Source of the DNA: Chryseolinea lacunae
Lineage (GTDB): Bacteria > Bacteroidota > Bacteroidia > Cytophagales > Cyclobacteriaceae
Reading direction: 5' to 3'
Assembly: GCF_016735595.1 (NCBI RefSeq)
Contig: NZ_JAERRB010000010.1
Span: forward strand, 124,001-188,000
DNA length: 64,000 bases
Within the stretch, counting starts at the first letter, position 1. Each line of letters opens with the position of its first letter. Made by a program: the position numbers and the translations under genes. The notes under the pieces are model-generated. The model searched no databases, was not told where the DNA came from, and saw nothing but the letters and a program-made list of their open reading frames with translations. Positions 8,453-12,422 of this stretch are shown here, one piece after another.

Positions 8453-8459
8453 ATATTTG
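8452..8459 (+). promoter_or_regulatory. -7 box of the nucleotide-translocase-like gene
   Basis: TATATTTG is an exact TAnnTTTG match ending 9 bases before the ATG at 8469. Transcription would start only a few bases before, or at, the start codon. No -33 box is recognisable because the terminator T tract occupies that position. Confidence 0.6.
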
Positions 8460-8468
8460 GTTTTCGCT

Positions 8469-11400
8469 ATGGCAAATCGTTTCGTTGGTGCCCTTCAAAT
8501 CAAAACCCAGGAGCAGAAGCAAATTGTGCTGATGCTGTGCACGGGCTTTTTCATGGGGGTGTTCATTGCCACCTACCAGGTAACGGTCGACTCCCTCTTC
8601 CTGAACCGTATGGGCGACCAGTTAGACAAAGCCTTCCTGGTGGCCGGCGCGTTGGGGATCATCACCACAGGTCTCTTCTCATTCTTTCAAAACTGGATCA
8701 AGTTCACCACGCTGGCGTTGGGCAGTGTGGCCCTCATGTTCCTGTTCACCCTCAGTGCCTACTGGCTCATTCACTTTGGCGATCCCGCATTTACAGACCG
8801 GTTCATCTTTGCGCTCTATTGCATGTCGGGACCCAACACAGCGGTTCTGCTGTTGAGCTTCTGGGGAATCTTCGGGCGGCTCTTCAACTTCCGCCAGTCC
8901 AAACGCATCATCGGCTGGATCGACACGGGGCAACTTATTGCGGCCATCCTGGCCACCCTCATTTTTATACCCTTCACCTCCGAGATTTTTAAGGACACGT
9001 CCAACTACCTGCTCATTTGTGCCATCAGCATCGCCATGGTGTCGGTGTTGCTGTTCATCATTGCCCACACCTTTCCACTCTCCAAAAACGATCCGCGCGA
9101 GTTTGGCGTAACGGTTCGGCGCGAAACCAGCATCACCAAGATATTCTCGGATCAATACATCGTGCTTTTGTCGCTGTTCCTGCTGGTGTCGATGGTGATG
9201 TTCACTTTCAGCCAGTATACCTTCCAAACCCTGGTGACGGTGCAATACCCCAACGTGCGCGACCTCACCAACTTCAACTCGTTCTTCATCGGCGCGGTCT
9301 ATGGCATCAGCCTTATTCTGCAGACGTTTGTGAACCAGCGCATCATCAGCAACTACGGTCTGCGCATCTCCCTGTTTGTGTTGCCCATTGTGATGATCAT
9401 TTTCTCGGTGGGCTCCATCACCATGGGAACGGTGTTCGGGTTCGACAAAAGCATTTCGCCCACGGGGTTCATCTACTTCTTCCTGTTCGTTTCGCTGAGC
9501 CGCCTTTTCAACTGGACGTTGCGCGACTCGATGGAGAACCCGGTGTTCAAGCTGTTTTTCATTCCGTTGGAATCGCGCCTTCGCTTCAACATACAAGCCA
9601 AAGTGGAAGGGCTGGTGAACGAAAGCGCCCGTTTTATTGCAGGCATTCTCATTTTCGTGCTGGCATTCATTCCGTTCTTCAACATCCTGCACATATCCAT
9701 ATTCCTCATCATTCTGGCGGCCGTCTATTTTGTGGTGGTAAACAACCTCTATAAGGGCTATCGAAACAAGATCCGCCTTAAGCTGGAGAGCACGGAAGAA
9801 CATCAGGAAAAACTGGAAAAGGGCTATGCGCAAATCACCACGCGCCTGGAGAACATGCTCACGGTGCCCTACTCCAGCAAGGCTGTTTTTTCATATAAGC
9901 TGCTGGAGAAGATCAACGCAGCGCTGGTGCCGCAGTGGGCCAACAGCCTCATGAAAAATGAAGACGAAGCCGCGCGCTACTACGCCCAGGAAAAAATGAA
10001 CGAGCTGAAGGGGTTGTCGGTGTCGGACCAATATGTGATCCGCATGGACGAATCGAAAGTGGATGGCAGCGAGAAGAACGTGCTCAGCATGCTTGACCTG
10101 CAACTCATCATCGAGAACGGCGGCGACATCACCAAAACCCGCATCCAGAAGCTCACGCGTTCCACCAATCCCAACGACCGACACTATGCAGCCGAGTTGC
10201 TGCTTCACACCTCGAAAGACGAATGCACGTCGTTTCTCATGGAGCTGCTGAACGACACCGAACCCAAGGTGCGCAATACAGCCCTGAAGACGTCCATAAA
10301 AAAGAACAACCCCGAAGTGATCAACGCCGTGATCGAAAACCTGGGCAACCCGGTGTTCAGCAACCAGGCCATGAACGCACTGACGCTCATCGGGTCCGAA
10401 ACCTTGCCGGCTCTCGACTCGGCGTTCTACCGGAGCGGGCAGAGCACGCAGATGATGCTCCGCGTGATCCAGGTGATCGGCCGGATAGGGGGGCAGCGCG
10501 CCCGTGAAATTCTGTGGGGCAAAATCGACTACCCCAACAAGATCATCGTGTCGCAGGTGTTGTTGTCGCTGGGCGAATGCGGGTTCAAAGCCGGCATCTC
10601 GCAGATCACCCGCATCAAATACGCCATCGAATCCGATATCGCCGACATCAGCTGGAACCTCAGTGCGCTTCAGGAAGTGGGCGACGAGGGATTTCACGAA
10701 CAGATCAAAACCACGCTGCGTTCGGAAATTCAAAACGACATCGAACACATCTATATGCTGCTCACCATGCTTTACGACACCCGCTCGATACAGCTGGTGA
10801 AAGAGAACATCGACAGCGGCACGGCCGAGGGCATCACCTATGCCATCGAGTTGCTGGACGTGTTCTTGTCTGAGCAATTGAAGCAGCGCGTAATCCCCAT
10901 CCTCGACGACCTCACCGATGCCGAGCGCACCGGTCGTCTCGAAGACTTTTATCCCCGCATCAAACTCGACTCGAAACTGGTGCTGAAGTTCATGATCAAC
11001 CGCGACTTTGCACAGTCGAACCGGTGGACCAAAGCTTGTGTGATCTACCAGATCGGCATTCTGCGCATCGAAGACTTCAAGCTCGACCTCATTGCACAGC
11101 TCTTCAATCCCGACACACTCATTCGCGAAGTGTCGGCCTGGGCACTCAACAGGTTAAGTCCCGACGAGTATAAGAAAAACACCAAGCGTTTGGGTGATGT
11201 GATGGAAAAGGAATTGAATGCCCTCATCATTCAGTCGCGTAAGATGACAAGGTTCGAGATGGTGTTGTTTTTCCAGCGCAACAACTTCTTCGAAAATGTG
11301 CCGGGGCTCACGCTGTCTTACCTCGCCGACATCTGCGACGAGATCCACCTGAAGCCACACGATTCTCTGCCGCTCGACGAGAAACAGAACAACTCCTTCT

Positions 11401-11627
11401 ATGTGCTGGTGTCGGGCTCGGTCGATTTTTATCAGCGCGGGCAGTTGGTGTCGCAATTTGAAACGGGGCAGTTCATCGGCGAAATGCTGGGGCTTCCCAA
11501 CTTTGTAAACACCAACCTCATCATTGCCCGCAGCGAAACAGTGGTGCTGAAATTCAACAAAGACCAGTTCTACGAACTATTGTCAGACAATGTGAAGCTG
11601 GCCGATAAGGTATTGGAGTATATTTGA
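8469..11627 (+). CDS. ADP/ATP-translocase-like carrier fused to HEAT repeats and a cNMP-binding domain
   Basis: A 1052-residue multidomain protein. Residues 1-430 carry about 12 membrane helices resembling the NTT/Tlc nucleotide transporter branch (MFS fold). Residues about 430-480 form a charged linker or coiled coil. Residues about 500-870 are helical repeats of HEAT type (for example MELLNDTEPKVRNTALKTSI). Residues about 974-1045 resemble a cyclic-nucleotide-binding (CRP-like) beta roll, with FYVLVSGSVDFYQRG and FIGEMLGLP. Such NTT-HEAT fusions are known in free-living bacteria, but their substrates are unsettled. ATG at 8469 is preferred over an in-frame TTG at 8457, which lies inside the -7 box. 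Confidence 0.85.
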   Translation: MANRFVGALQIKTQEQKQIVLMLCTGFFMGVFIATYQVTVDSLFLNRMGDQLDKAFLVAGALGIITTGLFSFFQNWIKFTTLALGSVALMFLFTLSAYWLIHFGDPAFTDRFIFALYCMSGPNTAVLLLSFWGIFGRLFNFRQSKRIIGWIDTGQLIAAILATLIFIPFTSEIFKDTSNYLLICAISIAMVSVLLFIIAHTFPLSKNDPREFGVTVRRETSITKIFSDQYIVLLSLFLLVSMVMFTFSQYTFQTLVTVQYPNVRDLTNFNSFFIGAVYGISLILQTFVNQRIISNYGLRISLFVLPIVMIIFSVGSITMGTVFGFDKSISPTGFIYFFLFVSLSRLFNWTLRDSMENPVFKLFFIPLESRLRFNIQAKVEGLVNESARFIAGILIFVLAFIPFFNILHISIFLIILAAVYFVVVNNLYKGYRNKIRLKLESTEEHQEKLEKGYAQITTRLENMLTVPYSSKAVFSYKLLEKINAALVPQWANSLMKNEDEAARYYAQEKMNELKGLSVSDQYVIRMDESKVDGSEKNVLSMLDLQLIIENGGDITKTRIQKLTRSTNPNDRHYAAELLLHTSKDECTSFLMELLNDTEPKVRNTALKTSIKKNNPEVINAVIENLGNPVFSNQAMNALTLIGSETLPALDSAFYRSGQSTQMMLRVIQVIGRIGGQRAREILWGKIDYPNKIIVSQVLLSLGECGFKAGISQITRIKYAIESDIADISWNLSALQEVGDEGFHEQIKTTLRSEIQNDIEHIYMLLTMLYDTRSIQLVKENIDSGTAEGITYAIELLDVFLSEQLKQRVIPILDDLTDAERTGRLEDFYPRIKLDSKLVLKFMINRDFAQSNRWTKACVIYQIGILRIEDFKLDLIAQLFNPDTLIREVSAWALNRLSPDEYKKNTKRLGDVMEKELNALIIQSRKMTRFEMVLFFQRNNFFENVPGLTLSYLADICDEIHLKPHDSLPLDEKQNNSFYVLVSGSVDFYQRGQLVSQFETGQFIGEMLGLPNFVNTNLIIARSETVVLKFNKDQFYELLSDNVKLADKVLEYI

Positions 11628-11631
11628 GGCC

Positions 11632-11829
11632 ATGTCGCGATCGAAAAAGATCTTTGTGGGGGTAGTGATTTTGTTTGCCATACTGCTGGCCTATGCGAGC
11701 TACGACATCAGCCGGAAAACTTCATTTCCAGGGTCGAAATCACAACTTAAGCAACGTCTGAAGGAAAAATACATGCCCCTGGATTCCGGGGTTTCAGATA
11801 CTGTAAAGGGATTTTCAAAGAAAAATTGA
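11632..11829 (+). CDS. Small single-pass membrane protein, 65 aa
   Basis: Starts 4 bases after the stop of the transporter-like gene, so it is very likely co-transcribed. It has a basic N-terminus, one hydrophobic helix (residues 7-24, IFVGVVILFAILLAYASY) and a polar Lys-rich tail. No family recognised. It could be an accessory subunit of the carrier; this rests only on adjacency. Confidence 0.65.
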   Translation: MSRSKKIFVGVVILFAILLAYASYDISRKTSFPGSKSQLKQRLKEKYMPLDSGVSDTVKGFSKKN

Positions 11830-11859
11830 TTTTTTTTTGAGGAATTATGATGCAAACGG

Positions 11860-11889
11860 TTGTTTTGACAACGGATATTTGTATCTTTG
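11860..11889 (+). promoter_or_regulatory. Promoter of small RNA copy 1
   Basis: TTG at 11860-11862, a 19-base spacer and TATCTTTG at 11882-11889 (exact TAnnTTTG). It ends 4 bases before the conserved RNA segment. Confidence 0.75.
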
Positions 11890-11893
11890 AAAC

Positions 11894-11955
11894 AGATTAA
11901 AGCCAACTATAGACATGACAATCCCCCTTAGTCGAGTACTTCGGGGGATTTTCAA
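11894..11955 (+). ncRNA. Putative small RNA, copy 1 of 3
   Basis: The 22-base segment at 11894-11915, containing ATTAAAGCCAACTATAG, is identical in all three copies. It is followed by a hairpin: AATCCCCC (11920-11927) pairs with GGGGGATT (11943-11950), with an inner AGT/ACT helix and a five-base loop, then a T-rich tail. The lower stem has one C/U mismatch (11919 and 11951). A TAnnTTTG promoter lies 4 bases upstream. An ATG in this copy could open a short frame, but it is absent from copies 2 and 3, so the element is treated as non-coding. Predicted RNA length is about 60 nt. Confidence 0.72.
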
Positions 11956-12004
11956 TTTAGGGCATTTTGGTTCCTTATCCTCGTTATCCGTCGTTCAACC
12001 CTAC

Positions 12005-12059
12005 TATTTTCCAGTGAACGATTTCACGAATGCCAGTTGAAACACATACCTTACCTTTG
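12005..12059 (+). promoter_or_regulatory. Promoter and upstream element of small RNA copy 2
   Basis: TACCTTTG at 12052-12059 is an exact TAnnTTTG, 5 bases ahead of the conserved segment. A 28-base element at 12005-12032 (starting TATTTTCCA) recurs ahead of copy 3 with 23 of 28 identical bases and exactly the same distance to the RNA. The -33 box is weak. Confidence 0.7.
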
Positions 12060-12064
12060 ACCTA

Positions 12065-12130
12065 AGATTAAAGCCAACTATAGACAATAACAATCCCCCG
12101 GAGTCCAGGATTTCGGGGGATTGTTATTTT
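12065..12130 (+). ncRNA. Putative small RNA, copy 2 of 3
   Basis: The conserved 22-base 5' segment spans 12065-12086. The hairpin has a 12-bp perfect stem, AACAATCCCCCG (12089-12100) with CGGGGGATTGTT (12114-12125), continuing inward with wobble pairs, then ATTTT. The pair C12091-G12123 corresponds to A12267-T12299 in copy 3, a compensatory double change that keeps the stem. It lies 171 bases after copy 1 and 176 before copy 3. Confidence 0.75.
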
Positions 12131-12180
12131 CAGCCGTTCCCGGCAACGCTTTATCCCCGCCAGCGACGTCTCGTCCCCAT

Positions 12181-12236
12181 TATTTTCCAATGACCGATTT
12201 AAGGGATGATCATGTCAAAACTTGTTTTTACTTTTG
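12181..12236 (+). promoter_or_regulatory. Promoter and upstream element of small RNA copy 3
   Basis: TACTTTTG at 12229-12236 is an exact TAnnTTTG, 4 bases ahead of the conserved segment. The element at 12181-12208 repeats the one at 12005-12032 and sits 32 bases before the RNA segment, as in copy 2. No clear -33 TTG is present, which would suit activator dependence. Confidence 0.7.
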
Positions 12237-12240
12237 TTTC

Positions 12241-12306
12241 AGATTAAAGCCAACTATAGACAGTAAAAATCCCCCGAGGTCAAGGACTTCGGGGGATTTT
12301 TATTTT
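12241..12306 (+). ncRNA. Putative small RNA, copy 3 of 3
   Basis: The conserved 22-base 5' segment spans 12241-12262. It is followed by the longest of the three hairpins: 12264-12280 pairs with 12286-12302 (17 bp including one G-U), loop CAAGG, ending in TTTTTATTTT. The inner stem (GAGGT/ACTTC) differs in sequence from copies 1 and 2 but is still paired. The next gene starts 117 bases later behind the terminator, so this is not an attenuated leader in the simple sense. Confidence 0.76.
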
Positions 12307-12422
12307 AACACCCCTGGCATTTGTCTCGAAATTCACGACGACAGAAATTCCGTTTTTGCTAACCCCTGACCATATTTGTTAGGGTTATTGTACCTACAAT
12401 TGTTTTGTCTAACTTTTCATCT

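Follow-up and report, generated by a model that had tools for sequence, protein, structure and literature searches.

Three tandem units found in the window, that is, the whole analysed stretch of 64,000 nucleotides of Chryseolinea lacunae DNA, belong to a family whose members are probably small RNAs of about 65 nt, present in multiple copies, each transcribed independently and ended by an intrinsic terminator, and acting via their 5' segment, likeliest by base pairing without Hfq. Comparison of the copies demonstrates the family itself, the constancy of the segment, the compensatory drift of the stem, the presence of several copies per genome and their arrangement in ordered tandem pairs.

The three units lie head to tail at positions 11894-12307 of the window with spacings of 171 and 176 bases, as described in an earlier note on this DNA (the sequence-only reading), and the exact 19-mer ATTAAAGCCAACTATAGAC is located at 11896, 12067 and 12243. 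In each unit, a TAnnTTTG box is separated by a short gap from the 22-base segment AGATTAAAGCCAACTATAGACA, which is followed by a hairpin and then by a T-rich tail; the gap, given earlier as 4-5 bases, is 4, 5 and 4 bases in copies 1, 2 and 3, and the segment is identical in all three, as had been claimed. The box alone is not rare (28 occurrences in the window, 28.4 expected). No fourth match to ATTAAAGCCAACTATAGAC was found in the window at up to 3 mismatches, the shuffle mean being 0.01, and in the 7.9-Mb genome of the organism the 19-mer with up to 3 mismatches matches only the three places in the window. The predicted folds have z-scores of -3.0, -6.8 and -7.7 for copies 1, 2 and 3, and shuffles folding equally well numbered 3 of 200 for copy 1 and 0 of 200 for each of copies 2 and 3. 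The compensatory change from C12091-G12123 in copy 2 to A12267-T12299 in copy 3, pointed out in the sequence-only reading, holds, both pairs being formed in the predicted folds. The inner stems had been regarded as paired in all copies, which stands for copies 2 and 3 and is more weakly supported for copy 1, because the hairpin of copy 1 is of another subtype with an internal loop.

Table. Positions of the units and associated features in the window.
Feature	Position	Strand	Remarks
65-aa gene, hydrophobic N-terminus (cluster c0)	11632..11829	+	usually the gene upstream at the main locus; not counted as belonging to the RNA gene
TTG ahead of the copy 1 box	11860-11862		
TATCTTTG, promoter -7-like box of copy 1	11882..11889	+	T at such a distance from the 16-mer conserved over 207 copies
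Copy 1 (subtype A), with the constant segment at 11894-11915, a hairpin and a T-rich tail	11894..11959	+	R1 82.9 bits; fold -17.9 kcal/mol
TACCTTTG, box of copy 2	12052..12059	+	
Copy 2 (subtype B), with the constant segment at 12065-12086, a hairpin whose apex is C-CAG-G and a T-rich tail	12065..12131	+	R1 77.7 bits; fold -31.0 kcal/mol
TACTTTTG, box of copy 3	12229..12236	+	
Copy 3 (subtype B), with the constant segment at 12241-12262, a hairpin whose apex is C-AAG-G and a T-rich tail	12241..12307	+	R1 87.3 bits; fold -30.4 kcal/mol

The best conserved positions upstream of the copies, apart from the bases adjoining the segment, are T at -12 (1.26 bits) and TT at -39/-38 (0.83 bits each), which we take to be the Bacteroidota form of promoter. 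Most copies would have their own promoter box of the Bacteroidota type. A stretch like AAACGGTTGTTTTGACA, which may be a regulator site or a promoter element, is common to the upstream region of subtype-A units in the genus, at positions 11855-11874 for copy 1 and at the equivalent place in loci L007-L011.

In a preliminary search, the 16-mer AAAGCCAACTATAGAC, with up to one mismatch, was found in 16 of 59 genomes, including that of the organism itself. A strong but differing hairpin follows it in 11 of these (G000-G005, G011, G013, G021, G023 and G028), while its occurrence in the remaining five looks like chance. The covariance model R1, built from 19 copies and applied at E ≤ 0.001, matched 58 of the 245 genomes of the family, which represent 19 of its 84 genera, with 1 to 13 units per genome; at least one of the 58, G170, is probably no more than a terminator, and G220 is a candidate member. 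Thus the multicopy layout in which the 5' segment is constant and the hairpin drifts but stays paired, deduced earlier from the three units, recurs across genomes; the search by covariance model, proposed at that time as a check, revealed that pairing is kept and that the 5' segment is near-invariant among relatives. Of the 194 genomes of the order, eight matched R1, namely, seven from the same family and one weakly, and of the 395 genomes of the phylum seven did, namely, four from the family and three with weak matches that have no such segment. The weak matches outside the family (L066, L372-L374) were rejected as terminators. A pattern scan of named genomes revealed at least 117 stretches; those listed carry the labels Cyclobacteriaceae, Flammeovirgaceae, Cytophagales, Bacteroidia and Bacteroidetes, as well as one uncultured Bacteroides, and the genera among them are Chryseolinea, Ohtaekwangia, Pseudochryseolinea, Parachryseolinea, Chryseosolibacter, Dawidia, Chryseotalea and, in many cases, Fulvivirga. 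G208 (Fulvivirga) has 13 copies and G166 has 12, while six of the seven g17 genomes matched by R1 have a single copy. Viral carriage was considered and dismissed: in ten of the 11 viral contigs with the 16-mer, the fold that follows it reaches -10.0 kcal/mol at best, and L233 (-17.3 kcal/mol) has neither box nor T-tail.

The 16-mer is nearly invariant across copies. Among the loci brought by the model, where up to five substitutions were allowed and a hairpin and a T-rich stretch were required, 100 places contain it exactly, 15 with one change and none with two or three; of ten places with four or five changes, two are genuine diverged copies retaining AAAGCCAACTA. A larger set of 224 distinct places, at least two of which (L018 and L030) are chance, was collected by a pattern admitting listed variants only, so that counts of invariance on this set are biased. 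In loci L098 and L100 of genus g75, accepted as diverged copies, AAAGCCAACTAATAGG replaces AAAGCCAACTATAGAC and the C-N-AG-G apex of the hairpin is kept. Locus L101, a candidate diverged copy, contains AAAGCCAACTAAAAC and a terminator, while L102 was rejected as a diverged copy, and further candidate places proved to be sense coding sequence, chance or copies already known.

Behind the segment, a fold below -14 kcal/mol was found in 219 of 222 copies versus 11 of 222 mononucleotide shuffles. Two hairpin subtypes share the 5' segment but not the hairpin: the apex is C-N-AG-G in subtype B and GTCG(A/T)G(A/T)AC in subtype A, and 15 of the 222 copies show neither pattern. The 16-mer and the subtype-B loop are separated by 18, 19 and 20 bases in 75, 62 and 28 copies, respectively. 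In an alignment of subtype B, the 42 rows of which were hand-chosen from 120 distinct hairpins, with the segments of Fulvivirga, other aberrant ones and a further 20 omitted and two rows mis-registered, 97.0% of cells are paired and both sides have changed in 10 of 13 pairs. None of 500 shuffles of this alignment reaches any of five measures, and sliding it by one column lowers pairing to 55.9 or 73.1%. All 120 distinct segments, aligned without gaps, are paired in 78.3% of cells versus 35.3-65.0% when slid, the value being lower because the stems of Fulvivirga are bulged and the loop pattern mis-registered some segments.

The copies were found in 42 tandem clusters, comprising 21 of composition AB, two ABB, two with A and an unassigned copy, and 17 without A. 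In all 25 clusters holding subtype A it comes first, and the second unit follows 161-188 bases after it. In Fulvivirga, arrays of three to five RNA units with protein genes between them were observed, with a period of 305-308 bases in L071 (G208) and 262-269 bases in L075 (G166).

The gene of cluster c0, mostly of 60-67 aa and with a motif like SYDISxRTTFPGSKPQLKERI, is represented by 97 neighbour entries, several of which have a locus or genome in common; it is the nearest upstream gene in 91 of them, at a distance of 84 bases in 20. No Pfam family matches it, and its one NCBIfam match is below the threshold. Among 29 genomes selected for having no R1 match, 26 from the family and 3 from the order, the gene is also present in 24; it is therefore a marker of the place that does not depend on the RNA. 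In these RNA-less loci (L346-L369), a gene with a KPEDxGK-like motif, identified as DUF2452 in the one case tested, directly follows the c0 gene in 15 of 24. A 1056-aa protein with HEAT repeats, a cyclic-nucleotide-binding domain and a membrane-like N-terminal part is encoded at 8457-11627 of the window, and its kin (cluster c5, 30 entries) is a frequent upstream neighbour of the RNA. In a second context, the RNA mostly lies 88-91 bases after the gene of a CarboxypepD_reg protein (cluster c8, 20 entries), and the next gene is often convergent (c11, 11 entries, minus strand).

The proposed promoter box of its own, the constant single-stranded 5' part and the drifting terminator together point to a small RNA acting via its 5' end. 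Each unit would be transcribed from its own box, with a start a few bases ahead of AAAGCCAACTATAGAC, into a transcript of about 65 nt ending at the strong terminator hairpin. The working part would be the single-stranded 5' segment, with the hairpin kept as a structure and only partly as a sequence. Most likely, the segment would base-pair with messenger RNAs at sites like TAGTTGGCTTT and so alter their translation or decay without Hfq; transcription, its start site, pairing as the mode of action and the direction of regulation we infer from the sequence. The presence of Hfq (PF17209) was not detected in any of 118 genomes of the family, with control matches in 5 of 14 genomes.

Known small RNAs of similar layout were compared with the family. 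FopS of Bacteroides thetaiotaomicron comprises 14 paralogous small RNAs with a conserved single-stranded 5' seed, bound by an RRM protein (RbpB), and the conserved 5' end of GibS/FopS pairs with start regions of messages, according to PMC11697453 and PMC7366714. Similar to these, the present family occurs in Bacteroidota without Hfq, is paralogous, has a conserved single-stranded 5' part and has an RRM protein in the cell; the likeness is one of described features. An own promoter, a conserved 5' part and an intrinsic terminator, characteristic of GibS/FopS, are present here as sequence features alone. In contrast to GibS, for which about 145 nt and further hairpins are described in PMC7366714, the present RNAs would have about 65 nt and one hairpin; FopS is described from Bacteroidaceae in PMC11697453, and, unlike FopS, the family shows no complementarity to SusC starts above control. 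NsiR1 of heterocystous cyanobacteria, in the account given in PMC9045159, is about 60 nt long, with 12 tandem copies, individual promoters and siblings having different targets; it resembles the family in length, tandem copies and the proposed individual promoters, but belongs to another phylum, and its model RF02399 scored 15.3 bits, below the cut-off of 39. NgncR_162/163 of Neisseria are described as tandem sibling small RNAs too, also of another phylum, and were compared via Rfam only.

A match to a known Rfam family, which the sequence-only reading had named as a refutation, was not found: Rfam 15 gave no match at the curated cut-off in the whole window, and the best match below it was His_leader, with 32 bits versus 49. 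The 16-mer, in DNA or RNA letters, and its DNA complement were found in none of the open-access paper texts searched, and no such RNA appears in the titles and abstract starts of the open-access papers found on small RNAs of Cytophagales, Cyclobacteriaceae, Fulvivirga and Chryseolinea. Given the lack of matches in Rfam and in this literature, the RNAs are called a new family of a known kind, i.e., multicopy small RNAs with a constant 5' segment.

Target prediction with the 5' segment, the other check proposed in the sequence-only reading, revealed no site convincingly above chance. Parts of genomes were searched for short sites and whole genomes for near-full complements only. Complement words of 8-10 letters showed no excess at gene starts in two 400-kb samples. 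In the congener G001, sense complement words were below expectation, both at starts (2 versus 11.0, sd 6.9) and in gene bodies (30 versus 63.6, sd 29.8), a deficit for which stop codons in the complement may account. At the starts of 277 and 320 genes, duplex energies lay slightly under the mean of the controls, of which 13 and 7 out of 60 gave lower values, and are not clearly outside the controls. The starts of SusC genes, scored on one strand in 18 of 30 fetched loci, had a mean of -8.52 versus -8.26 (sd 0.90), and 23 of 60 shuffled segments were lower. Of neighbour genes, scored in 12 of 13 clusters, no site was kept as a target: starts of c8 and c10 scored lower than every one of 40 controls (z -2.4 and -1.7, among 24 scores), but are not believed because the predicted sites disagree between genomes.

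Near-full complements with wobble in 21 genomes numbered 104 versus 93 for the reversed pattern, in a tally where for some genomes the subtracted RNA copies are R1 matches. The best-looking site in the organism's own genome, at L430 1501-1516 (C26), is complementary in 15 of 16 letters and lies about 110 bases inside a gene that, judging by its N-terminus, is presumably dnaK. Such a site in a dnaK-like gene is absent from the complete lists of near-full-complement places of the congeners G003 and G005, and dnaK of G001 was not found in another 400 kb chosen on the basis of presumed synteny; the site is taken as chance, though not disproved. No ribosomal RNA operon was found in the sampled sequence. 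Short pairing sites may still exist, because the searches for them covered parts of genomes.

As no clear excess of targets was found, a protein-binding role of the invariant segment keeps some weight. Csr/Rsm-type RNAs elsewhere titrate a protein in several copies, and 16 constant letters exceed the length that most pairing seeds need, which is a point against base pairing. The RNAs could thus be decoys, in which a protein titrated by the copies, e.g., a small RRM protein, binds the invariant 16-nt stretch, either alone or together with the apical C-N-AG-G loop; we consider this rather unlikely. It would account for long invariance without a clear excess of complementary sites, for the many copies in some genomes (13 in G208) and for the C-N-AG-G apex common to most subtype-B copies, and an RRM protein was found in five of the six genomes examined. 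However, RRM proteins do not track the RNA, since G015, which is without it, has two; subtype A is without the C-N-AG-G apex; and the diverged L098 and L100 retain AAAGCCAACTA but not the rest of the 16-mer. A stricter form, in which the 16-nt 5' end is the site of an RNA-binding protein and not an antisense seed, the copies, up to 13 in a genome, being a dosage-tuned Csr/Rsm-like decoy in bacteria that have no Hfq and the hairpin little more than a terminator, seems about as unlikely.

The other explanations are far less probable than a decoy. That the RNA is a cis-acting leader or attenuator of the gene behind it is very unlikely: the next gene does have the same direction as the RNA in the window and in most main loci, but the next genes differ between genomes (clusters c1, c2, c4, c6 and others) and are convergent in the second context, so that one constant downstream gene in the same direction was not found, and every unit of a tandem ends in a separate hairpin and tail. 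The tandem arrays in Fulvivirga and the presence of several copies in one genome would also fit a mobile or recombination element, transcribed or not, such as a transposon end, a REP-like repeat or an attC-like site; we give this little credence, as several genera preserve both the orthologous places and the order of A before B, the promoter-like box stands at a constant distance, and there is no member on the viral contigs. A short coding gene has almost no probability, although the 16-mer does not vary and is open in two of three frames, because no conserved start codon precedes the 16-mer, stem changes preserve pairing, and no reading frame is kept, the distance from the 16-mer to the loop being variable.

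The preferred reading, small RNAs acting via the 5' segment, looks like that of a widespread, uncatalogued family of Cyclobacteriaceae. The family offers built-in tools for study, namely, more than 200 distinct copies, two subtypes with one 5' segment and related genera without the RNA, and it poses a testable puzzle, a near-unchangeable 16-nt segment versus no clear excess of complementary sites. If this reading is true, Hfq-independent riboregulation in Bacteroidota extends beyond gut Bacteroides.
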